A DNA stretch of 32,869 nt, taken from Rhodospirillales bacterium. GTDB taxonomy: Bacteria > Pseudomonadota > Alphaproteobacteria > ATCC43930 > CGMCC-115725. Both the position numbers and the translations under genes were made by a program. The notes under the pieces are model-generated. The model saw only the letters and a program-made list of their open reading frames with translations. It was not told the DNA's origin and did no database searches. Position 1 is the stretch's first letter. Each line of letters opens with the position of its first letter. Below, in pieces: positions 11,954-24,184 of the stretch. The stretch covers positions 1-32,869 of the forward strand of contig JAQGID010000134.1 of the NCBI GenBank assembly GCA_028291405.1, in the 5' to 3' direction.

Positions 11954-11992
11954 TTGACATACGGTATCTGGTATACAACAATTCCTCTGCTG
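11954..11992 (+). promoter_or_regulatory. oxlT promoter with candidate GntR operator
   Basis: TTGACA at 11954-11959 is a perfect -35 hexamer; AACAAT at 11977-11982 is a weaker -10 at 17-base spacing. Between and over them lies GGTATCTGGTATACAA (11963-11978) followed by CAATTC and CTGCTG. About 24 of 30 positions recur upstream of the ThDP gene at 13449-13477. The TGGTATACAA core is the kind of dyad bound by FCD-type GntR regulators. The rest of the 11685-12062 gap shows nothing else definite. Confidence 0.6.
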
Positions 11993-12062
11993 CGACGCTT
12001 CCGAGGTCAGCGAACGTGGCCGATGCAAGCGATCGTATAAGATCCGGGAGGAAGAATTGGCT

Positions 12063-13370
12063 ATGGACTCGAAATCCGGCAAAGCACCGACCAATCGCTG
12101 GCTGCAATTGGTCATCGGCATCATCTGCATGGCGATGATCGCCAACCTCCAATACGGATGGACGCTCTTCGTCAATCCGATCAGCGCGGCGCGCGGCTGG
12201 GATCTGAAGAGCATTCAATGGGCCTTCACGATCTTCGTCCTGCTCGAGACGTGGCTCGTCCCGATCGAGGGCTGGTTCGTCGACAAGTTCGGCCCGAGCC
12301 TAGTCGTCGTCTTCGGCGGCGCGCTCTGCGGCATCGCGTGGGTGATCAATGCCTACGCCGATACCCTCAGCCTGCTTTATCTCGGTGCCGCGATCGGCGG
12401 CATCGGCGCCGGCGCGGTCTACGGCACGGCCGTCGGCAACTCGCTGAAATGGTTCCCCGATCGTCGCGGCCTCGCGGCCGGCCTGACCGCGGCGGGGTTC
12501 GGCGCCGGCTCGGCGTTGACCGTCGTCCCGATTGCCGCCGTGATCAAATCGAGCGGCTACCAGTCGGCGTTCCTGTGGTTTGGGATCGGCCAAGGCCTGA
12601 TCTGCGTCGTGCTCGGCTTCTTCCTCAGCCAGCCGCGCAAGGGCGACGTTCCGGAGCCGACGAAAATCCTCGTCGCGCGGCACCAGTATACACCCGGCGA
12701 GATGCTGAAGACGCCAACCTTCTACGTCATGTATGCGATGTTCGTGATGATGGCGGCCGGCGGCCTGATGGCGACGGCGCAGCTCGGCCCGATCGCCAAG
12801 GACTTCAAGATCGCCGACGTGCCGGTCTCGATGCTCGGCATCACCCTTCCGGCGCTCACCTTCGCGCTCTCGATCGACCGCGTCCTCAACGGTGTCACGC
12901 GACCGTTCTTCGGCTGGGTCTCCGACCATATCGGCCGCGAGAATACGATGTTCATCGCCTTCGGCCTCGAGGCGATCGGTATCTGGATGATGAGCCTTTA
13001 TGGTCATAACCCGGTCGCCTTCGTGATATTGACCGGCCTGGTCTTCTTCGCCTGGGGTGAGATCTACAGCCTCTTTCCGGCTACCTGCGGCGATACCTTC
13101 GGGTCGAAATTCGCGACCACCAATGCTGGGCTGCTCTATACGGCAAAGGGGACGGCATCGCTTCTCGTCCCGTTCGCCAACGTGCTGACGGAATGGACCG
13201 GCAGTTGGCATGCGGTTTTCATCACCGCGAGCCTGCTCAACGTCGTCGCGGCGTTGCTCGCGCTCTTCGTATTGAAGCCGATGCGCGTCGCCCAGACGCA
13301 GCGGTCGTTCTCGGCGGAAGAGGGCGCGGCGATGGCGGGCGGCGCCTCGGCTCTGCCTGGTGGACACTGA
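12063..13370 (+). CDS. oxlT: OxlT-like oxalate/formate antiporter (MFS)
   Basis: 435-residue, twelve-span major facilitator resembling Oxalobacter formigenes OxlT, which exchanges oxalate for formate. Shared features are the N-terminal NLQYGWTLFVNP span, FVDKFGPSL in the first loop, the NSLKWFPDRRGLAAGLTAAG segment, and a GEMLKTPTFYVMY segment after the central loop. The two substrate-binding basic residues are kept: Arg280 in NGVTRPFFGW and Lys362 in LLYTAKGTAS, matching OxlT Arg272 and Lys355. ATG 12063 is used; a TTG two codons upstream sits closer to the GGAGG site and is possible. It is transcribed separately, ahead of the ThDP-frc operon. Other 2-oxo or dicarboxylate substrates cannot be excluded. 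Confidence 0.87.
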   Translation: MDSKSGKAPTNRWLQLVIGIICMAMIANLQYGWTLFVNPISAARGWDLKSIQWAFTIFVLLETWLVPIEGWFVDKFGPSLVVVFGGALCGIAWVINAYADTLSLLYLGAAIGGIGAGAVYGTAVGNSLKWFPDRRGLAAGLTAAGFGAGSALTVVPIAAVIKSSGYQSAFLWFGIGQGLICVVLGFFLSQPRKGDVPEPTKILVARHQYTPGEMLKTPTFYVMYAMFVMMAAGGLMATAQLGPIAKDFKIADVPVSMLGITLPALTFALSIDRVLNGVTRPFFGWVSDHIGRENTMFIAFGLEAIGIWMMSLYGHNPVAFVILTGLVFFAWGEIYSLFPATCGDTFGSKFATTNAGLLYTAKGTASLLVPFANVLTEWTGSWHAVFITASLLNVVAALLALFVLKPMRVAQTQRSFSAEEGAAMAGGASALPGGH

Positions 13371-13434
13371 GCTTCGGAACACCACGGGCTGGGCGGCTGT
13401 GTCGTCCAGTCCGTAACGATCCCCGCGGAGCGTC

Positions 13435-13477
13435 TTGCAGGGCGTTCTGGTATACGATATACAAAATTCAACTGCTG
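13435..13477 (+). promoter_or_regulatory. promoter and candidate operator of the ThDP-frc operon
   Basis: TTGCAG (13435-13440), a 17-base spacer and TATACA (13458-13463) form a good sigma-70 promoter. Covering the spacer and -10 is GGTATACGATATACAA (13449-13464), an imperfect dyad of GTATAC and ATATAC, followed by AATTC and CTGCTG. This matches the element upstream of oxlT. Its overlap with the -10 box suggests repression by a bound regulator, most simply the GntR protein encoded at the end of this cluster. Confidence 0.62.
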
Positions 13478-13640: not shown

Positions 13641-15401
13641 ATGACGACGACAACGACAGCCAGGAATCCCGAGTCGACCACGACGACCGCCGACGACACG
13701 CTGAAGCAGAAGAGCCGCGACGCCTCCGTCATCTCCGGCGGCCATCTCGTCGCCAAGGCCCTGAAGGCCGAGGGCGTCGATACGATCTTCACGCTTTGTG
13801 GCGGCCATATCATCGACATTTACGACGGCTGCGTCGACGAGGGTATCCGGATCATCGACGTGCGGCACGAGCAGGTCGCGGCGCATGCCGCCGACGGCTA
13901 CGCGCGCCAGACCGGCAAGCTCGGCTGCGTCGTGACGACCGCCGGTCCCGGCTTCACCAATGCGATGACCGGCGTCGCGACGGCATTCCGCTCCGAGAGC
14001 CCGGTGCTCCACATCGGCGGCCAAGGCGCGTTGACGCAGCACATGATGGGCTCGCTGCAGGACCTGCCGCACGTCGACATCGCCAAGCCGATCACCAAGT
14101 TCTCGGCCAGCGTCCGCTCGACCGAGCGCGTCGCCGACATGATTGCGATGGCGGCCCGCGAATGCTTCGCCGGCGCGCCCGGCCCGGCCTATCTCGAGAT
14201 CCCGCGCGACATCCTCGACCGCGAGATCGACGTCGCCAAGGCGGTGCTGCCGCAGCCCGGCCACTACCGTTCCTCGACCAAGCAGCTCGGCGACCCCGCC
14301 GACATCGAGAAGCTCGCCGACATCCTCGTCAATGCCGAGCGGCCGGCGATCCTTTTCGGCCAGCAAGTGTGGACGGCACGCGGCCACGAGGAGGCGATCG
14401 CGCTGCTCCGCGGCCTCGACATTCCCGGCTATTTCAATGGCGCCGCCCGCGGCCTGCTGCCGCCCGGCGACAAGCATCATTTCGATCGCACGCGCAGCCA
14501 GGCCTTTGCCAAGGCCGACGTCATCGTCATCGTCGGGACGCCGTTCGATTTCCGCATGGGCTACGGCAAGCGCATCAGCGTGCCGACGCTCGTGCAGATC
14601 GATCTCGACTACCGCACGGTCGGAAAGAACCGCGACATCTCGCTCGGCCTCGTCGGCGACCCCGGCATGATCCTCGGCGCCGTGCTGCAGGCGGCGTCCG
14701 GCCGTCTCAAGAGCGACAAGCGCCAGGCGCGGCAGGATTGGATGAAGCAGCTCAGCGCTGCCGAGGCGGCGGCGACCGAGAAGCTCATGCCGCTCTTCAC
14801 CTCGAACGCCTCGCCGATCCACCCCTATCGCGTCGCCTGGGAGATCAACGAGTTCCTCACTGACGACACGATCTATATCGGCGACGGCGGCGACGTCGTG
14901 ACGATCTCGGCGCAGGCGGTGCGGCCGCGCTCGCCGGGCCATTGGATGGATCCCGGCGCGCTCGGCAGCCTCGGGGTCGGCACCGGCTTTGCGATCGCGG
15001 CGAAGCTCGCCCATCCCAAGAAGGAGGTGCTCTGCTATTACGGCGACGGTTCCTTCGGCATGACGGCCTTCGACATGGAGACGGCGAACCGCTTCAACGC
15101 GCCTTACCTCGCGGTCATCGGCAACAATTCGGCGATGAACCAGATCCGCTACGGCCAGCTTGCGAAATACGGCGAGCAGCGCGGCAATGTCGGCAATCTG
15201 CTGGGCGACGTGGAGTTCGGCAAATTCGCCGAGATGCTCGGCGGCTACGGCGAGGAGGTGCGCGACGCCGCGCAGATCGCGCCGGCGCTGCGCCGCGCTC
15301 GCGAGGAGATCCGGAAGAGCGGCCGCTCGGCGGTCGTCAACATCTGGGTCGATCCCCGCGAATACGCGCCGGGCACCAAAGCCCAGACGATGTACAAGTA
15401 A
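13641..15401 (+). CDS. ThDP-dependent oxalyl-CoA decarboxylase / 2-hydroxyacyl-CoA lyase
   Basis: 586-residue enzyme with the three domains of the acetolactate synthase/oxalyl-CoA decarboxylase group. Glu77 in [17 protein letters not shown] is the cofactor-activating Glu. [18 protein letters not shown] (from residue 468) to GNNSAM is the ThDP-Mg motif. Context (oxlT, frc, formate dehydrogenase) predicts oxalyl-CoA to formyl-CoA plus CO2. However, [16 protein letters not shown] gives Leu139-Gln140 where O. formigenes Oxc has Tyr120-Glu121. That block instead resembles MGAFQEFPQVEACR of human HACL1, which splits 2-hydroxyacyl-CoA into formyl-CoA and an aldehyde. The Oxc C-terminal Ser-x-Arg is also not seen; the tail is [12 protein letters not shown]. 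The start at 13641 has GAGGAG 7 bases upstream. frc follows by 13 bases. Confidence 0.8.
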
Positions 15402-15414
15402 GGAGGGGATGAAG

Positions 15415-16689
15415 ATGAGCAAAGCATTGGACGGCGTCCGCATCCTCGACTTCACGCATGTGCAGTCGGGGCCCACCTGTACTCAGCTTCTCGCCTGGTT
15501 CGGGGCCGATGTCATCAAGGTCGAGCGGCCCGGCGTCGGCGACATCACGCGCGGCCAGCTGCGCGACATCCCCGGTGTCGACAGCCTCTATTTCACGATG
15601 CTGAACCACAACAAGCGGTCGATCACGATCGACAGCAAGCATACCAAGGGCAAGGAGCTGCTCGAGGAGTTGATCCGTACCTGCGACGTGCTGGTCGAGA
15701 ATTTCGCACCGGGCGCGCTCGATCGCATGGGCTTCACCTGGGAACGCGTGCAGCAGCTCAATCCGCGCATGATCATGGCGTCCGTCAAGGGCTTCGGCCC
15801 CGGCCCCTATGAGGAGTGCAAGGTCTACGAAAACGTCGCGCAATGCGCCGGCGGCGCCGCCTCGACGACCGGCTTCGACGACGGCCCGCCACTGGTGACC
15901 GGCGCGCAGATCGGCGACAGCGGCACCGGGCTGCATCTCGCCCTCGGCATCGTCGCCGCACTCTATCAGCGCAACGCCACCGGCCGGGGCCAGCGCGTCC
16001 TCGCGGCGATGCAGGACGGCGTCCTCAACCTCTGCCGCGTCAAGCTGCGCGACCAGCAGCGCTTGGCGCACGGGCCGCTCAAGGAGTACCCGCAATATCC
16101 CTTCGGGGAGTTCGGCGAGTCCGTGCCGCGCGCCGGCAACGCCTCGGGTGGTGGCCAGCCGGGCTCGATTCTGAAGTGCAAGGGCTGGGAGAGCGATCCC
16201 AACGCCTACATCTACTTCATCACCCAGGCGCCGGTCTGGGACAAGATCTGCAAGGTCATCGGCAAGGAAGAGTGGATCACCGATCCGGAATACGCCAAGC
16301 CTGAGGCACGGCTGCCGCATCTCGTCGAGATCTTCGCCACGATCGAGGCCTGGACGATGACCAAGGGCAAGCTCGAGGCGATGGCGATCCTCAACGAGTA
16401 CGACATCCCCTGCGGGCCGATCCTCTCGATGAAGGAGATCGCGGAGGAGCAGTCGCTGCGCGATACCGGCACCGTCGTCGAGATCGATCATCCGACGCGC
16501 GGCAAGTACCTCTCGGTCGGCAACCCGATCAAGATGTCGGACAGCATCACCGAGGTGACGCGCTCGCCGCTGCTCGGCGAGCATACCGACGAGATCCTGC
16601 GCGACGTGCTGAAGTTCGACGAGGCGAAGATCGCCGAGTTCAAGAACTCGGGCGCGATGACGCCGCCGACGCGCGTCGCCGCGGAATAG
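15415..16689 (+). CDS. frc: formyl-CoA:oxalate CoA-transferase
   Basis: Moves CoA from formyl-CoA to oxalate, giving formate and oxalyl-CoA; class III CoA-transferase, cytosolic homodimer. 424 residues against 428 in O. formigenes. The match is close throughout: [14 protein letters not shown] (with the conserved Gln), [34 protein letters not shown], the nucleophile Asp168 in IGDSGTGLH (Asp169 in the reference), [10 protein letters not shown], the flexible glycine loop SGGGQPG and [10 protein letters not shown]-like [17 protein letters not shown] at 15401-15406 favours the second ATG (15415) over 15409. It is the clearest functional anchor of the cluster, sharing an operon with the preceding ThDP enzyme and probably the acyl-CoA synthetase. 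Confidence 0.96.
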
Positions 16690-16764: not shown

Positions 16765-18906
16765 ATGGCTGACGCAGCGATGGACAAGGGTGCGGTTCGC
16801 AGGATTCTCGATAGCGCCAAGGCGGCCGGGCGAAGCTCGCTGACGGCGCCCGAAGGCAAGGAGATCTGTGACGCCTACGGCATCGCCGTGCCGCAGGAAG
16901 CGGTCGCGAGATCAGCCAGCGAGGCGGCGTCGCTCGCGACGAAGATGGGCTTCCCGGTTGTCCTCAAAATCGTTTCGCCCGACATCCTGCACAAGACCGA
17001 GGCCGGCGGCGTGCTCGTCGGACTCGCCAGCGACGACGAGGTCGCGCAGGGCTACGCGACGATCCTGGCGAATGCCAAAAAGTACAAGGCGGATGCCAAG
17101 ATCGACGGCGTCCAGGTGCAGCAGATGCTGAACGGCGGCCAGGAGGTCATCGTCGGCGCCGTCACCGACGGCAGCTTCGGCAAGCTCATCGCCTTCGGCA
17201 TGGGCGGCGTTCTCGTCGAGGTGCTGAAGGACATCACCTTCCGCCTCGCGCCGGCGACCAAGGACGACGCTCTCTCGATGCTCGACGGCATTCAGGCGGC
17301 CGAGATGCTGAAGGGCGTGCGCGGCAGCGAGCCGGTCAGCCGCGACGCCTTGGCGAATCTCATCGTCCGTGTCTCGCAGCTGATCAGCGATTTTCCCGAG
17401 ATCTCCGAGATGGATCTCAACCCGGTCTTCGCGACGGCGAAGGGCGCGGTCGCCGCCGACGTCCGCATCGTCATGGATTTCAACCCGGCGCCGCAGCGCC
17501 ATCGGCCGAGCCAGGAAGAGATCCTCGCGTCGATGAATCGCATCATGCGTCCCGATGCGGTGGCGGTGATCGGCGCTTCGGCCGAGGACGGCAAGATCGG
17601 CAACTCGGTAATGAAGAACCTGATCAACGGCGGCTACCAGGGCAAGATCTATCCGATCCATCCCAAGGCCGAGGAGATCATGGGCCTCAAAGCCTATAAA
17701 TCGGTCAAGGACGTGATCGGCGAGATCGACGTCGCGGTCTTCGCGATCCCCGCCAAGTTCGTCGCCGCCGCGCTGATCGAGTGTGGCGAGAAGAAGATTC
17801 CCGGCGCCGTGCTGATCCCATCGGGCTTCGCCGAGACCGGCAACGTCGAGGGCCAGGACGAGATCCAGGCGATCGGCCGCAAGTACAACGTCCGGCTGAT
17901 GGGGCCGAACATTTACGGCTTCTACTACACTTGGAAGAATCTCTGCGCGACCTTCTGCACCGCCTATGACGTGCGCGGTCACGCGGCGCTCTCCTCGCAA
18001 TCGGGTGGCATCGGCATGGCGATCATCGGCTTCTCGCGCTCGGCCAAGATGGGCGTCTCGGCTATCGTCGGGCTCGGCAACAAATCGGATCTCGACGAGG
18101 ACGATCTCCTGACCTTCTTCGAGCAGGACGAGAACACCCATATCATCGCCCAGCATTGCGAGGATCTGAAGGACGGTCGTTCCTTCGCCGAGATCGCCAA
18201 GCGCGTCACGAAGAAAAAGCCGGTCGTCATGCTCAAGGCCGGCCGCACCTCGGCCGGCGCCAGGGCGGCGAGCTCGCACACCGGCGCCCTCGCCGGCAAC
18301 GACAAGATCTACGAGGACGTGCTGAAGCAGTGCGGCGTCATTCGCGCCCGCAGCTTGCGCGACATGCTCGATTTCGCGCGCGGCATACCCAAGCTGCCGA
18401 CGCCGAAGGGCGAGAATGTCGTCATCATCACCGGCGCGGGCGGCTCCGGGGTGCTGCTATCGGATGCCTGCGTCGACAACGACGTCCGGCTGATGGCGAT
18501 GCCGCCCGATCTCGACGCCGCCTTCCGCAAGTTCATCCCGCCGTTCGGCGCCGCCGGTAACCCGGTCGACATCACCGGCGGCGAGCCGCCGGCGACCTAC
18601 AAGAACACGGTGAAGCTTGGACTCGAGGACGAGCGTATCCATTCTCTCATTCTCGGCTACTGGCACACGATCGTGACGCCGCCGATGGTCTTCGCGCATC
18701 TCATCGTCGACGTCGTCGAGGAGATGAAGGCCAAGGGTATCCATAAGCCTATCGTCGCCTCGCTCGCCGGCGACGTTCAGGTCGAGGAGGCCGCGGAGTT
18801 CCTTTACGACCACGGCATCCCGTCCTATGCATATTCGACGGAGATCCCGGTCGCGGTGCTGGGAGCGAAATACAAATGGGCGCGCGGCGCCGGCCTATTG
18901 GGGTAG
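16765..18906 (+). CDS. NDP-forming acyl-CoA synthetase family protein
   Basis: 713-residue fused acyl-CoA synthetase of the ADP-forming acetyl-CoA synthetase superfamily. An ATP-grasp domain is N-terminal (about 1-235, with VVLKIVSPDILHKTEAGGV and SEMDLNPVF). A CoA-binding Rossmann domain follows (about 255-360, RPDAVAVIGASAEDGKIGNS), then succinyl-CoA synthetase-like domains (about 365-700). The phospho-His loop is SSHTGALAGN with His505; SSQSGGIGMAI is another family signature. Domain order is permuted relative to the common CoA-binding-first proteins. The substrate is not readable. In this cluster it could charge oxalate, formate or a 2-hydroxyacid with CoA, priming the Frc cycle. It lies 35 bases before fdhB. 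Confidence 0.85.
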   Translation: MADAAMDKGAVRRILDSAKAAGRSSLTAPEGKEICDAYGIAVPQEAVARSASEAASLATKMGFPVVLKIVSPDILHKTEAGGVLVGLASDDEVAQGYATILANAKKYKADAKIDGVQVQQMLNGGQEVIVGAVTDGSFGKLIAFGMGGVLVEVLKDITFRLAPATKDDALSMLDGIQAAEMLKGVRGSEPVSRDALANLIVRVSQLISDFPEISEMDLNPVFATAKGAVAADVRIVMDFNPAPQRHRPSQEEILASMNRIMRPDAVAVIGASAEDGKIGNSVMKNLINGGYQGKIYPIHPKAEEIMGLKAYKSVKDVIGEIDVAVFAIPAKFVAAALIECGEKKIPGAVLIPSGFAETGNVEGQDEIQAIGRKYNVRLMGPNIYGFYYTWKNLCATFCTAYDVRGHAALSSQSGGIGMAIIGFSRSAKMGVSAIVGLGNKSDLDEDDLLTFFEQDENTHIIAQHCEDLKDGRSFAEIAKRVTKKKPVVMLKAGRTSAGARAASSHTGALAGNDKIYEDVLKQCGVIRARSLRDMLDFARGIPKLPTPKGENVVIITGAGGSGVLLSDACVDNDVRLMAMPPDLDAAFRKFIPPFGAAGNPVDITGGEPPATYKNTVKLGLEDERIHSLILGYWHTIVTPPMVFAHLIVDVVEEMKAKGIHKPIVASLAGDVQVEEAAEFLYDHGIPSYAYSTEIPVAVLGAKYKWARGAGLLG

Positions 18907-18941
18907 GCCGCGCCGGGACGCTGGATCCGAACGGAGCCACG

Positions 18942-20690
18942 ATGACGGTACATGACGGCGCGACGGCTGATCCGCACAAGGCAATCCATCCCGGCGCCGG
19001 GCGGCGTCGCGGCCGCAACATGCCGAAGGGAAGACAGGTCGATCTCGGGGCACTCTTCGAGGTCCGCGCCTTGCTCGGGACGCGATCGCGCCAGCGCGAT
19101 CTGCTGATCGAGCATCTGCATCTGATCCAGGACGAGTACGGCCATCTCTCGGCGGCGCATCTCGCGGCGCTCGCCGAGGAGATGAACCTCTCGCTCGTCG
19201 AGGTCTTCGAGGTCGCCTCGTTCTACGCGCATTTCGATATCGTCCTCGACGGCGAGACGCCGCCCCCGCCATTGACGGTTCGCGTCTGCGACAGCCTGAC
19301 CTGCGCCCTGAGCGGCGCGCAGGCGCTTCTCGACGCGCTACCTGCCCGGCTCGGCTCCGGCGTCCGCGTCGTCCGCGCGCCATGCATGGGCGGCTGCCAC
19401 AACGCGCCGGTCACGGCAATCGGCCACGCTCTGCACGAGCACGCCACGATCGACAGCGTCGTCGCCGCCGCCACCGCCGGCGAGACGCATCCGCATGTCC
19501 CCGACACTATCGACTTCGCAGCCTATCGCGCCGCCGGCGGCTACCGCGTGCTGGAGGACTGCCTCGCCGGCAAGCGCGACGTCGAGAGCATGCTCAAGCT
19601 GCTGGAGGATTCGCAGCTCCGCGGCCTCGGCGGCGCCGGCTTTCCGACCGGGCGGAAATGGCGCCTCGTCGGAGCGCAGCCGGCGCCTCGGTTGATGGCG
19701 GTCAATGCCGACGAGGGCGAGCCCGGCACCTTCAAGGACCGCTACTACCTCGAGAACGATCCGCATCGTTTCCTCGAAGGCATGCTGATCGGTGCCTGGG
19801 CCGTCGGCGTCACCGAGATCTACATCTACCTGCGCGACGAATACCCGCAATGCCGCGAGCTCCTCGAGCAGGAGATCGCCAAGGTCGAGGCCGCTGGTCT
19901 GACGCGCGGGCTGCCGATCCACATGCGGCGCGGGGCCGGCGCCTATATCTGCGGCGAGGAATCCGCCATGCTCGAGAGCATTGAGGGCAAGCGCGGCCTG
20001 CCGCGCCACAAGCCGCCCTATCCGGCGGAGGTCGGTCTGTTTGGTCGGCCGACGCTGATCAACAACGTCGAGACGCTGTTCTGGATCCGCGACATCGTCG
20101 AGCAGGGGCCCGCGGTCTTCGCCAAGGACGGGCGGCATGGCCGCAAGGGAATGCGCAGCTTCTCGGTCTCGGGCCGCGTCAAGTCGCCCGGGGTCAAGCT
20201 GGCGCCGGCCGGCATCACCGCCAACGAGCTGATCGCGGAATATTGCGGCGGCATGCTTGATGGCCACGTCTTCAAGGCCTATCTGCCAGGGGGCGCCTCG
20301 GGTGGCGTGCTGCCGGCCAGCATGGCCGACGTGCCGCTGGATTTCGGCACGCTCGAGCCGCTCGGTTGCCTGATCGGCTCGGCGGCCGTCGTCATCCTCT
20401 CGGACAAAGACAGCATGCGCGAGGTCGCGCTAAACCTGCTGCGCTTCTTCGAGGACGAGAGCTGCGGTCAGTGCACGCCCTGCCGTGCCGGCACCGAGAA
20501 GGCGGTCAAGCTGATGGAGCGGCAGCGCTGGGACGAGGGGTTGCTCGACGATCTGACGCGGGTGATGATGGATGCGTCGATCTGCGGCCTCGGCCAGGCC
20601 GCGATGAACCCGGTACGCTCGGTGCTGACGCATTTCCGCGAGGAGCTCGGCCTGGGCGAGCGGCCGGCTAGCGATAGGAATGGGACATGA
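18942..20690 (+). CDS. NAD-dependent formate dehydrogenase, fused NuoE-NuoF-like beta subunit
   Basis: 582-residue diaphorase subunit passing electrons from the formate dehydrogenase alpha subunit to NAD. The N-terminal third is NuoE-like with a 2Fe-2S site (C116, C121, C148, C152, in CDSLTC and CMGGC). The rest is NuoF-like: FMN-binding LGGAGFPTGRKW, NAD-binding NADEGEPGTFKDRYYLEND, GAGAYICGEESAMLES and a 4Fe-4S site in SCGQCTPCRAGT plus a later ICGLGQ cysteine. The fused form and the PKGRQVDLGALFE start resemble Fdh1B of Methylorubrum. ATG 18942 has GGAG 5 bases upstream; an in-frame ATG at 18876 lies within the preceding gene. Its stop overlaps the alpha subunit start by 4 bases. Confidence 0.93.
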   Translation: MTVHDGATADPHKAIHPGAGRRRGRNMPKGRQVDLGALFEVRALLGTRSRQRDLLIEHLHLIQDEYGHLSAAHLAALAEEMNLSLVEVFEVASFYAHFDIVLDGETPPPPLTVRVCDSLTCALSGAQALLDALPARLGSGVRVVRAPCMGGCHNAPVTAIGHALHEHATIDSVVAAATAGETHPHVPDTIDFAAYRAAGGYRVLEDCLAGKRDVESMLKLLEDSQLRGLGGAGFPTGRKWRLVGAQPAPRLMAVNADEGEPGTFKDRYYLENDPHRFLEGMLIGAWAVGVTEIYIYLRDEYPQCRELLEQEIAKVEAAGLTRGLPIHMRRGAGAYICGEESAMLESIEGKRGLPRHKPPYPAEVGLFGRPTLINNVETLFWIRDIVEQGPAVFAKDGRHGRKGMRSFSVSGRVKSPGVKLAPAGITANELIAEYCGGMLDGHVFKAYLPGGASGGVLPASMADVPLDFGTLEPLGCLIGSAAVVILSDKDSMREVALNLLRFFEDESCGQCTPCRAGTEKAVKLMERQRWDEGLLDDLTRVMMDASICGLGQAAMNPVRSVLTHFREELGLGERPASDRNGT

Positions 20691-23449
20691 GCGAGCCGAT
20701 CAAGTTCCTGCTCGACGGCACCGAGGTCGAGGCGTTGCCGGGCGAGAGCATCTGGCAGGTTGCAAACCGGCTCGGCACCGAGATTCCGCATCTCTGCTAC
20801 AGCACGGCCAAGGGGTATCGCGCGGACGGCAATTGTCGCGCCTGCATGGTCGAGGTCGAGGGCGAGCGCGTCCTTGCCGCCTCGTGCATCCGCAAGCCGA
20901 CACCAGGAATGAAGGTCAAGAGCGCCAGCGAGCGTGCCGTCGCCTCCCGCAAGCTGGTCTTCGAGCTGCTCGTCGCCGATCAACCCGATCGCGCGATCGC
21001 GCACGACCCCGATTCGAGCTTCTGGCGCTGGGCCGACCGCGTCGAGGTCGGCGACAGCCGCTTCCCGCACGATGCGCGGCCCGTCCCCGATCGGTCGCAC
21101 CCTGCGATGGCGGTGCACCTCGACGCCTGCATCCAATGCAATCTGTGTGTCCGTGCCTGCCGCGAGGTCCAGGTCAACGACGTGATCGGCATGGCGGCGC
21201 GCGGCCATCACGAGAAGATCGTCTTCGACTTCGACGATCCGATGGGCGACAGCACCTGCGTCGCCTGCGGCGAATGCGTCCAGGCCTGCCCGACCGGCGC
21301 GCTGATGCCGGCGACGCAGGTCGATGCCGACGGCGTGTTCATGAACGCGCCCGATCGCAAGGTCGACAGCGTCTGCCCCTATTGCGGCGTCGGCTGCCAG
21401 CTTACCTACGAGATCAAGGATGACCGCCTCATCGCGGTCGAGGGCCGCGACGGGCCCGCGAACCAGGGGCGGCTCTGCGTCAAGGGCCGCTTCGGCTTCG
21501 ACTACGTCAACCATCCGGAGCGGCTGACCGTGCCGCTGATCCGCAAGGCGGGCGTACCGAAGGATGATGTCGCGATCGACCCGGCCAATCCGCTGACGCA
21601 TTTCCGCGAGGCGACGTGGGAAGAGGCGCTGCAGGTCGCCGCCGGCGGACTGAAGCGAATCCGCGACCGTGACGGCGGCAAGGCGCTCGCCGGCTTCGGC
21701 TCAGCCAAGGGCTCGAACGAGGAGGCCTATCTCTTCCAGAAGCTTGTGCGCATCGGCTTCGGCACGAACAACGTCGACCATTGCACCCGGCTCTGCCACG
21801 CCTCGTCCGTGGCGGCGCTGATGGAAGGGATCGGCTCGGCGGCGGTGACGGCGCCCTTCATGTCGGCGAAGGATGCCGATGTCATCATCGTGATCGGCGC
21901 CAATCCGACGCAGAACCATCCGGTCGCCGCGACTTTCTTCAAGAACGCGGCGAAGCGCGGCGCCAAGCTGATCGTCATGGATCCGCGCGGCCAGGCCCTG
22001 TCGCGTTATGCGACGCACATGCTGCAGTTCAAGCCGGGGCGCGACGTCGCGATGCTGAACGCGATGCTCAACACGATCATCGAGGAAGGCCTTTACGACA
22101 AGCAATATGTCCAGGCCCATGCCGACGAGTTCGAGGGGCTGAAAGCGCATATCGTCGACTACACGCCTGAGGCGATGGCCGACATCTGCGGCATCGACGC
22201 GTCGACGTTGCGCGAGGTGGCGCGGCTCTATGCCCGTGCCGAGGGCGCCATCATCTTCTGGGGCATGGGCATCTCGCAGCATGTCCACGGCACCGATAAC
22301 GCCCGCTGCCTGATCGCCTTGGCGATCGTCACCGGCCAGGTCGGGCGGCCGGGCACCGGGCTGCATCCGCTGCGCGGCCAGAACAACGTCCAGGGCGCAT
22401 CGGACGCAGGGCTGATCCCGATGTTCTTCCCCGACTACCGCAGCGTCGAGGACCCGGAATTTCACAAGTTCTACGAGGAGCTGTGGGGCGGCACGATCCC
22501 GCCGAAGCGCGGCCTGACCGTCGTCGAGATCATGGACGCGGTCCACGAGGACGTCATCAAGGGCATGTACATCATGGGCGAGAACCCGGCAATGTCGGAT
22601 CCCGACGTCAGCCACGCCAGGGCTGCCCTCGCCAAGCTCGAGCATCTCGTCGTCCAGGACATCTTCCTGACCGAGACGGCGCGCTACGCCGACGTCGTCC
22701 TGCCGGCCTCGGCCTGGCCGGAGAAGGACGGCACGGTGACGAACACCAACCGGCAGGTGCAGATGGGCCGCAAGGCGCTGCCGATGCCGGGCAATGCCCG
22801 CGAGGATTGGGTGGTGATCCAGGAGATCGCCCAGCGTCTCGGCCTTAACTGGAACTACAGCCATCCCAGCGAGATCTTCGCCGAGATGACCGAGGCGATG
22901 CCGTCTCTCGCCAACATCACATGGGACCGCCTCGAGCGCGAGAGCTCGGTCACATATCCCTGCGCCGCGCCCGACCAGCCCGGCGACGACATCGTCTTCG
23001 GCGACGGCTTCCCGACCGAGAACGGCCGCGCCAAGCTGGTCCCGGCTGCGATCATCAACCCAGCCGAGGAGCCGGACGACGCTTATCCGATGGTGCTCTC
23101 CACCGGCCGCCAGCTCGAGCATTGGCATACCGGCGCGATGACCCGGCGCTCGTTCGTGCTCGACGATCTCGAGCCCGAGGCGGTCGCCTCGCTCGCGCCG
23201 TCGGACATCCGCAGCATGGGCATCGCCCCCGGCGCGATGGTCCGCGTCGCGACGCGGCGCGGCGAGATCGAGCTGAAGGCGCGCTCCGACAGCGCCGTGC
23301 CGCCGGGCATGATCTTCATCCCGTTCTGCTATGCCGAGGCGGCGGCCAACATCCTGACTAACCCGCAGCTCGATCCCTTCGGCAAGATCCCGGAGTTCAA
23401 GTATTGTGCTGCCAAGGTCGAGCCCGTGATCGCCGATGGAGCGGAGTAG
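20687..23449 (+). CDS. NAD-dependent formate dehydrogenase alpha subunit (Mo/W-bis-MGD)
   Basis: 920-residue catalytic subunit oxidising formate to CO2. Domains in order: a ferredoxin-like 2Fe-2S domain (C37, C50, C53, C67), a region with two 4Fe-4S motifs (DACIQCNLCVRAC and CVACGECVQACP), a proximal 4Fe-4S site beginning SVCPYCGVGCQL with the last Cys in GRLCVKGRFG, then the molybdopterin oxidoreductase body and a C-terminal dinucleotide-binding domain (STGRQLEHWHTGAMTRR). Cys370 in DHCTRLCHASSV occupies the Sec/Cys metal-ligand position, followed by the catalytic His, so this is a cysteine-type enzyme. Mo or W cannot be told apart. No fdhD or small delta subunit is nearby. The GntR gene starts on the base after its stop. 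Confidence 0.95.
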   Translation: MSEPIKFLLDGTEVEALPGESIWQVANRLGTEIPHLCYSTAKGYRADGNCRACMVEVEGERVLAASCIRKPTPGMKVKSASERAVASRKLVFELLVADQPDRAIAHDPDSSFWRWADRVEVGDSRFPHDARPVPDRSHPAMAVHLDACIQCNLCVRACREVQVNDVIGMAARGHHEKIVFDFDDPMGDSTCVACGECVQACPTGALMPATQVDADGVFMNAPDRKVDSVCPYCGVGCQLTYEIKDDRLIAVEGRDGPANQGRLCVKGRFGFDYVNHPERLTVPLIRKAGVPKDDVAIDPANPLTHFREATWEEALQVAAGGLKRIRDRDGGKALAGFGSAKGSNEEAYLFQKLVRIGFGTNNVDHCTRLCHASSVAALMEGIGSAAVTAPFMSAKDADVIIVIGANPTQNHPVAATFFKNAAKRGAKLIVMDPRGQALSRYATHMLQFKPGRDVAMLNAMLNTIIEEGLYDKQYVQAHADEFEGLKAHIVDYTPEAMADICGIDASTLREVARLYARAEGAIIFWGMGISQHVHGTDNARCLIALAIVTGQVGRPGTGLHPLRGQNNVQGASDAGLIPMFFPDYRSVEDPEFHKFYEELWGGTIPPKRGLTVVEIMDAVHEDVIKGMYIMGENPAMSDPDVSHARAALAKLEHLVVQDIFLTETARYADVVLPASAWPEKDGTVTNTNRQVQMGRKALPMPGNAREDWVVIQEIAQRLGLNWNYSHPSEIFAEMTEAMPSLANITWDRLERESSVTYPCAAPDQPGDDIVFGDGFPTENGRAKLVPAAIINPAEEPDDAYPMVLSTGRQLEHWHTGAMTRRSFVLDDLEPEAVASLAPSDIRSMGIAPGAMVRVATRRGEIELKARSDSAVPPGMIFIPFCYAEAAANILTNPQLDPFGKIPEFKYCAAKVEPVIADGAE

Positions 23450-24184
23450 ATGTCAGGCGCGACCGTCAAAATTCGGGAGCTGCCGCCGTTGAACGATGCC
23501 ATGCCGCCCCTCGTCGTCCAGCCGCTCGAGCCCTCGCTCAGCTTTCGCGACCGCGCCTATGCTGCACTGAAGCAGGCGATCATGGACGCCGACATCTACG
23601 GGCAGAAGCGCGAGATCCGCCTCGACGAGCGCCAGCTGTCGGCGGCGCTCGGCGTCTCGCGCACGCCGGTGCGCGAGGCGATGACGCTGCTGGAGCAGGA
23701 GGGTTTCCTGCGCTCGGAGCCGCGCCGGGGCGTCTTCATCATCCGCAAGACCAAGCGTGAGATCCTCGAGATGATTGAGGTCTCGGCGGGGCTCGAGAGC
23801 ATGGCGGCGCGGCTCGCGGCGACCCGCGCGACGCCCGAAGAGATCGCCAATCTGCGCCGCATGTTCGACGATTTCGTCAACGAAAACCCGGAAGAGCACA
23901 TCGACGAATATTCCGATGCGAATCTGGAGTTCCACCAGGCGATCGTGCGGATGGGCCGCTCAGAGCTGATCGCGCGGATGATCGACAATCTCTTCGTGCA
24001 TGTCCGCGCCATCCGCCGCGTCACGATCGGCCAGGCGCATCGCGCCGAGCGCTCGATCGTCGATCACATGAACATCATCGAGGCGCTCGCCGCGGGCGAC
24101 GCCGACCGCGCCGGGCAGCTCGTGCTCGACCACGCGCTGGGCCTCGCCGCCCATGTCGAGGAGCACTGCACCTTCCTGGAGTGA
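23450..24184 (+). CDS. GntR-family regulator, FCD subfamily
   Basis: 244-residue transcription factor. The winged helix-turn-helix occupies about residues 28-95, with RLDERQLSAALGVSRTPVRE and the wing segment GFLRSEPRRGVFI. The C-terminal all-helical FCD ligand domain carries the expected metal-binding acidic and His residues in DANLEFHQAIV, VDHMNIIEAL and DHALGLAAHVEEH. Such proteins sense small organic acids or acyl-CoAs. It follows fdhA with no gap, so it is made with the enzymes it probably controls; the paired TGGTATAC elements before oxlT and the ThDP gene are the likely targets. The inducer might be oxalate, oxalyl-CoA or formate, which is inference. Confidence 0.92.
   Translation: MSGATVKIRELPPLNDAMPPLVVQPLEPSLSFRDRAYAALKQAIMDADIYGQKREIRLDERQLSAALGVSRTPVREAMTLLEQEGFLRSEPRRGVFIIRKTKREILEMIEVSAGLESMAARLAATRATPEEIANLRRMFDDFVNENPEEHIDEYSDANLEFHQAIVRMGRSELIARMIDNLFVHVRAIRRVTIGQAHRAERSIVDHMNIIEALAAGDADRAGQLVLDHALGLAAHVEEHCTFLE

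Follow-up and report, generated by a model that had tools for sequence, protein, structure and literature searches.

A conserved dyad at the oxlT and ThDP-frc promoters, the predicted operator of an FCD/GntR regulator of oxalate genes

How is the oxalate gene cluster of this Rhodospirillales bacterium switched on? The window, which is the whole stretch of 32,869 nucleotides analysed here, contains two similar elements, one in front of oxlT and the other in front of the ThDP-frc operon. A preliminary description had predicted from them a small oxalate regulon with a defined operator. Comparison with other genomes bears this out, except that the unit is 17 bp and the regulon is probably wider. 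We consider it highly probable that the FCD/GntR regulator encoded at 23450–24184 uses both elements as operators, and that it would repress until oxalate enters and is bound, as such or as its CoA ester.

The genes are all read on the plus strand. The oxlT gene (12063–13370) encodes an oxalate/formate MFS antiporter (TIGR04259, 658.7 bits, cut-off 335), and its start is read as the ATG at 12063, preceded by GGGAGGAAG. A ThDP-dependent enzyme with three TPP domains is encoded at 13641–15401, in the oxalyl-CoA decarboxylase position; its start is read as the ATG at 13641, preceded by AGGAG. Then follow frc, for formyl-CoA:oxalate CoA-transferase (15412–16689; TIGR03253, 717 bits, cut-off 504), and the gene of an ADP-forming acyl-CoA ligase-like protein (16765–18906; ATP-grasp_5, Succ_CoA_lig and Ligase_CoA_2). 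This protein is 77–87% conserved and adjoins frc in many loci, and it may provide a route of activation from oxalate to oxalyl-CoA that does not need Frc. The NuoE/NuoF-like subunit of an NAD-dependent formate dehydrogenase (18876–20690; 2Fe-2S_thioredx, Complex1_51K) and the formate dehydrogenase alpha subunit (20687–23449; TIGR01591, 762 bits, cut-off 666) are encoded next. The last gene of the operon, at 23450–24184, is the regulator gene gntR; a GntR gene had been placed at the cluster end before, and the Pfam GntR and FCD domains confirm it. No separate dyad accompanies gntR, which directly follows the alpha subunit gene; its transcription therefore presumably starts at the operator 2 promoter, and it is presumably autoregulated through operator 2.

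Site 1 is CGGTATCTGGTATACAA at 11962–11978, and site 2 is TGGTATACGATATACAA at 13448–13464. Both are forms of a 17-bp dyad, TGGTATA-N3-TATACCA, and they are its top two matches within the window. The agreement at 13 of 16 positions reported previously (11963–11978 against 13449–13464) was reproduced in positions and count. The longer match of about 24 of 30 positions was obtained with one single-base gap, and fell to 15 of 30 ungapped. The functional unit is the 17-bp dyad rather than a 30-bp element, and each dyad begins one base before the start given earlier. The 30-bp unit was rejected because the tail AATTC-N2-CTGCTG is absent after the dyads in relatives. In operator 1, the 10-bp core TGGTATACAA at 11969–11978 is joined by an upstream half-site. 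In operator 2, the core at 13448–13457 is followed by a third half-site, TATACAA, overlapping the −10.

The window contains the pattern TNGTATACNA twice, whereas 0.03 occurrences would be expected by shuffling. A weight matrix was built from 16 sites that precede gntR orthologs in other genomes of the same order, with the window sites held out. With this matrix, operator 2 ranked first in the window at 24.5 bits and operator 1 second at 21.5 bits (on the minus strand), and the next distinct place scored 13.5 bits. About 0.2 sites of at least 21.5 bits are expected by chance per 6.48 Mb. The genome-wide scans were done by pattern matching. In them operator 2, with 13 of 14 dyad positions, is the best dyad match of the entire genome. 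TNGTATACNA is found at only six places in 6.48 Mb, and it is not over-represented genome-wide (six places against 17 for the reversed control); neither is the 17-bp dyad with three mismatches, which has 17 places where its reversed pattern has 36. The case for the operators rests on position and conservation.

Both sites overlap predicted sigma-70-type promoters, those of oxlT and of the ThDP-frc-fdh-gntR operon. The oxlT promoter (11954–11982, plus strand; TTGACA-N17-AACAAT) matches the consensus at 10 of 12 positions, and is the sole promoter-like site on its strand in the scanned region, where shuffles average 0.3. Operator 1 (listed on the plus strand) lies in the spacer of this promoter and extends into the first bases of the −10. 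The operon promoter (13435–13463, plus strand) reads TTGCAG-N17-TATACA, a geometry also seen in relatives; the core of operator 2 (plus strand) lies in its spacer, and the half-site TATACAA lies on its −10. The predicted promoters agree with the original placement of the first element between −35 and −10, and of the second over the spacer and −10. The operator 2 dyad begins 13 nt after the −35 start, with a spacer of 17. The same geometry is found at frc and gntR of L183 and at gntR of L174, L177 and L179, whereas operator 1 has a different one. Over all loci, a TTG/−10 promoter overlaps 64 of 110 dyads, against 17 of 110 random positions. The gntR mRNA may be leaderless in loci such as L177, L179 and L183, where only a few bases separate the predicted −10 from the gntR start codon.

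Within the window, the tail AATTC-N2-CTGCTG is confined to 11980–11992 and 13465–13477, near the expected transcription starts. Nowhere else in the 6.48-Mb genome does it follow TATACAA. The shared tail could originate from a promoter duplication or be a start-region element; no relative was found that carries the dyad and is close enough to date the tail.

Is the dyad conserved at orthologous loci? Loci encoding close relatives of the ThDP enzyme were collected, 80 in all, with 10 kb per side where available, and in most of them a GntR ortholog (47–64% identical) is linked to the ThDP/frc genes. The proposed search for the motif in orthologous oxlT and frc loci was positive. Upstream of gntR, ThDP or oxlT, 100 matches of at least 11/14 were found, against 19 for the reversed pattern; at 12/14 or better there were 52 matches and none for the control, which never exceeded 11. 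Perfect 14/14 dyads stand upstream of gntR in four loci (L069, L075, L079 and L086). Betaproteobacterial loci carry mainly the variant TGGTATGTGATATATCA, and gammaproteobacterial loci carry GATATATCANATATGG between TTGACA and the −10. In Alpha-, Beta- and Gammaproteobacteria that retain the FCD/GntR gene, the dyad is found at the same kinds of promoter. Counting of 10-mers without a template also yields TGATATATCA and TGGTATACCA. The dyad is therefore conserved in front of orthologous targets and of the regulator gene, as is characteristic of FadR-subfamily operators. Some regulator-bearing loci have a weak dyad or none at ThDP or oxlT, and several of these have one at gntR instead.

Among 42 other genomes of the same order, 21 encode a GntR ortholog. 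For 19 of these 21, fetched with flanks, the dyad mostly matches at 12–13 of 14 positions and stands at the gntR start in most, usually beside frc. In the family of the window genome, TGGTATCTGGTATACCA or TGGTATACCATATACCT is located directly at gntR, adjoining frc, and in L183 a site near-identical to operator 2, TGGTATACGATATACCT, is located in front of frc. In several same-family loci the neighbour is a true oxalyl-CoA decarboxylase (880–990 bits against TIGR03254). These loci indicate that the regulator accompanies oxalate breakdown whichever decarboxylase is present. The ThDP enzyme of the window scores 238 bits against TIGR03254, below the cut-off of 739.4, and is not recognised by that model. 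True Oxc alternates with it beside the same regulator in relatives. Its context beside frc, under the same regulator, suggests a decarboxylase role, and true Oxc in its place in relatives suggests that it is a second, unrecognised type of oxalyl-CoA decarboxylase.

Genomes without the regulator serve as natural controls. Thirteen ThDP loci belong to genomes that lack a GntR ortholog, and nine of them have enough upstream sequence. None of the nine carries a dyad at ThDP or oxlT, compared with 38 of 68 loci with the regulator (Fisher p 0.002, which is indicative only, as the genomes are related). Among the 30 dyad-negative loci that bear the regulator, some have a dyad before gntR, which there precedes ThDP. 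The clearest case is L141, where OxlT, ThDP enzyme and Frc are 70, 82 and 89% identical to those of the window, with neither regulator nor dyad. Genes kept without the motif had been named as the observation that would speak against an operator. In all nine such loci the genome lacks the regulator gene as well, which fits the operator interpretation.

The regulator protein has the FadR-subfamily architecture, a GntR winged helix plus an FCD domain, with both Pfam models above cut-off (PF00392, 50 bits; PF07729, 95 bits). At least 99% of 80 orthologs retain H162, H206 and H228, the metal-ligand histidines of the FCD domain. Their spacing of 44/22 is that of HypR (H142/H186/H208) and Ps5454 (PMC6608401, PMC7674646); four positions before H162 stands Asn in place of Asp. 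Orthologs beside oxalate genes are 47–65% identical, and the recognition-helix region is nearly invariant among orthologs. The genome also encodes seven more distant GntR-type paralogs (25–38% identity). From its domains, its orthologs beside oxalate genes and its recognition-helix region, the protein is predicted to bind operators 1 and 2.

The FadR-subfamily operator consensus is a TKGT/ACMA palindrome, often with an extra half-site 7–12 nt away (PMC4494728). Site 1 fits TKGT-N2/3-ACMA exactly (TGGT-AT-ACAA). Site 2 (TGGT-AT-ACGA) is one base off and has in addition the half-site TATACAA. The dyads had been likened to those of FCD-type GntR regulators, and both sites do show the FadR-subfamily palindrome. 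Two bases between GT and AC, an A/T-rich centre, a weaker extra half-site, carboxylic-acid metabolism and an FCD regulator are all shared with that subfamily (PMC4494728); unlike in its operators, the extra half-site of operator 2 is also the −10. The pair thus belongs to an already known operator class. That review (PMC4494728) makes no mention of this ortholog group or its oxalate targets.

Escherichia coli NanR, with its (GGTATA)3 operator (PMC8012715), shares the GGTATA half-site, the FCD family and promoter repression, which is inferred here. Site 1 resembles the NanR operator in that GGTATC-T-GGTATA stands in direct order. However, the form conserved here is a dyad, in which one half-site is inverted and the spacing is 7 bp. 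A triple direct repeat of the NanR type was rejected; at most two half-sites are direct, the third is inverted, and relatives show the dyad. Against the NanR model NF003011, the protein scores 59 bits (cut-off 260). Its best NCBIfam match is the Burkholderia PhnR-type model TIGR03338 (117 bits), far under the cut-off of 271.5, and no phosphonate genes are among the named families of the cluster. With E. coli DgoR, HypR and CitO, the regulators of galactonate, hydroxyproline and citrate genes, it would share a metal-dependent FCD carboxylate pocket, predicted here, and the control of local sugar-acid or carboxylate operons; with HypR it also shares the three-histidine spacing of 44/22. The ligands and operators differ from those of all three, and CitO is an activator.

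According to the mechanism that we propose, each operator would consist of a 10-bp FadR-subfamily palindrome, TGGTATACNA, and a third half-site seven bases away. In the absence of inducer, a regulator dimer on the spacer and −10 of both promoters would exclude RNA polymerase. Oxalate or its CoA ester would bind the FCD domain, probably via a metal held by the three conserved histidines. The ligand-bound regulator would then leave the DNA, and the importer and the catabolic operon would turn on together; the regulator would in turn reset its own gene, the last of the operon. That it binds directly, that it represses and does not activate, and which ligand induces are what we infer from the evidence above. 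Oxalate is a strong chelator. In DgoR, a divalent metal mediates the binding of the carboxylate effector (PMC7674646). Both points make oxalate a natural candidate for the inducer, with the CoA ester as the alternative.

As the sites lie within the spacer and −10, steric repression is the simplest reading. The regulator might instead be an oxalate-dependent activator at the dyads, as CitO is with citrate. CitO, also an FCD protein, activates when ligand-bound (PMC4746285; discussed in PMC6608401). Both sites, however, are inside the −35/−10 region, where a bound dimer blocks the polymerase, and not upstream of −35, so we regard activation as unlikely. It is also conceivable that the gntR linkage is incidental and that the binder is a different protein, either an FCD paralog or the IclR/BhcR-like protein encoded on contig C250. 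Paralogs in the FadR subfamily have similar cores, seven further GntR-type matches are found in the genome, and the IclR/BhcR-like gene adjoins one further site on C250. But the dyad follows this ortholog group across genomes and is absent where the group is absent, and in several genomes the only copy of the dyad core stands at this gntR (the single TGGTATACMA of G019, G024 and G014). A different binder is thus very unlikely.

Finally, the likeness of the two sites might reflect a duplicated promoter segment, or chance resemblance of two AT-rich −10 regions, without any operator. An equally good local alignment arises in 0.4% of shuffles, and the tail beyond the dyad, present only here, could mark a recent duplication. 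An origin without an operator is nevertheless extremely improbable, because the dyad is found again before gntR, frc and oxc in other genera, and this holds also for its bases that lie outside any −10. Repression by the FCD/GntR protein through both operators is therefore the reading that we retain.

Outside the window, TGGTATACMA is found at three places in the genome. The site at C391:7080–7096 (L138, 22.4 bits) lies before a hydroxypyruvate isomerase-family gene. The site at C250:3468 (L137, 13.6 bits) is flanked by the gene of a second oxalate/formate antiporter (TIGR04259, 622 bits) and by the IclR/BhcR-like gene; after the latter come genes for glyoxylate carboligase (TIGR01504, 955 bits) and for a hydroxypyruvate isomerase-like protein. 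The third, C31:16800 (L139, 16.0 bits), precedes a GlcD-like oxidase gene, whose likely start is about 120 bp away. The isomerase and the GlcD-like protein score below their curated cut-offs. By score alone the C250 and C31 sites could be chance matches, and their interest comes from the genes that they front. Since all other genomic copies of TGGTATACMA front such genes, the regulon probably extends to glyoxylate and glycolate genes. More tentatively, and at somewhat under even chances, the regulator may be a broad C2-acid switch, acting through one dyad in which the third half-site is the −10 box; it would cover oxalate import, two distinct forms of oxalyl-CoA decarboxylation, formate oxidation and, elsewhere in the genome, glyoxylate carboligase, hydroxypyruvate isomerase and the glycolate-oxidase-like gene. 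The site TCGTATACGA at C432 was excluded from the regulon, since its score is negative and it falls within a coding frame.

Among the papers searched, we found no account of a GntR regulator or operator for the catabolism of oxalate in bacteria. The pair, conserved across three proteobacterial classes, offers a testable rule for when oxalate use is switched on in soil and plant-associated bacteria. The dyad can also serve as a marker for oxalate genes missed by current models, such as that of the ThDP enzyme unrecognised by TIGR03254.

Several further sites were seen in relatives. In L265 and L266, TGGTATACCA is located near the gene of a distant Frc-like CoA-transferase (29–30% identity) and a GntR gene of 25–26% identity, which indicates that other FCD regulators can use the same core. 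Several other TGGTATACCA sites were not counted because the nearby genes are unnamed by family models. At L252:1770 (G003), TGGTATACAA stands just before a formyltransferase-domain gene, so that formyl-group metabolism is possibly tied to the regulon. Two related genomes have tandem operators, TGGTATACCACTGGTATACCA and TGGTATACCACTGGTATGCCA, at a site with no named target gene (L257:3681–3701 and L261:3638).
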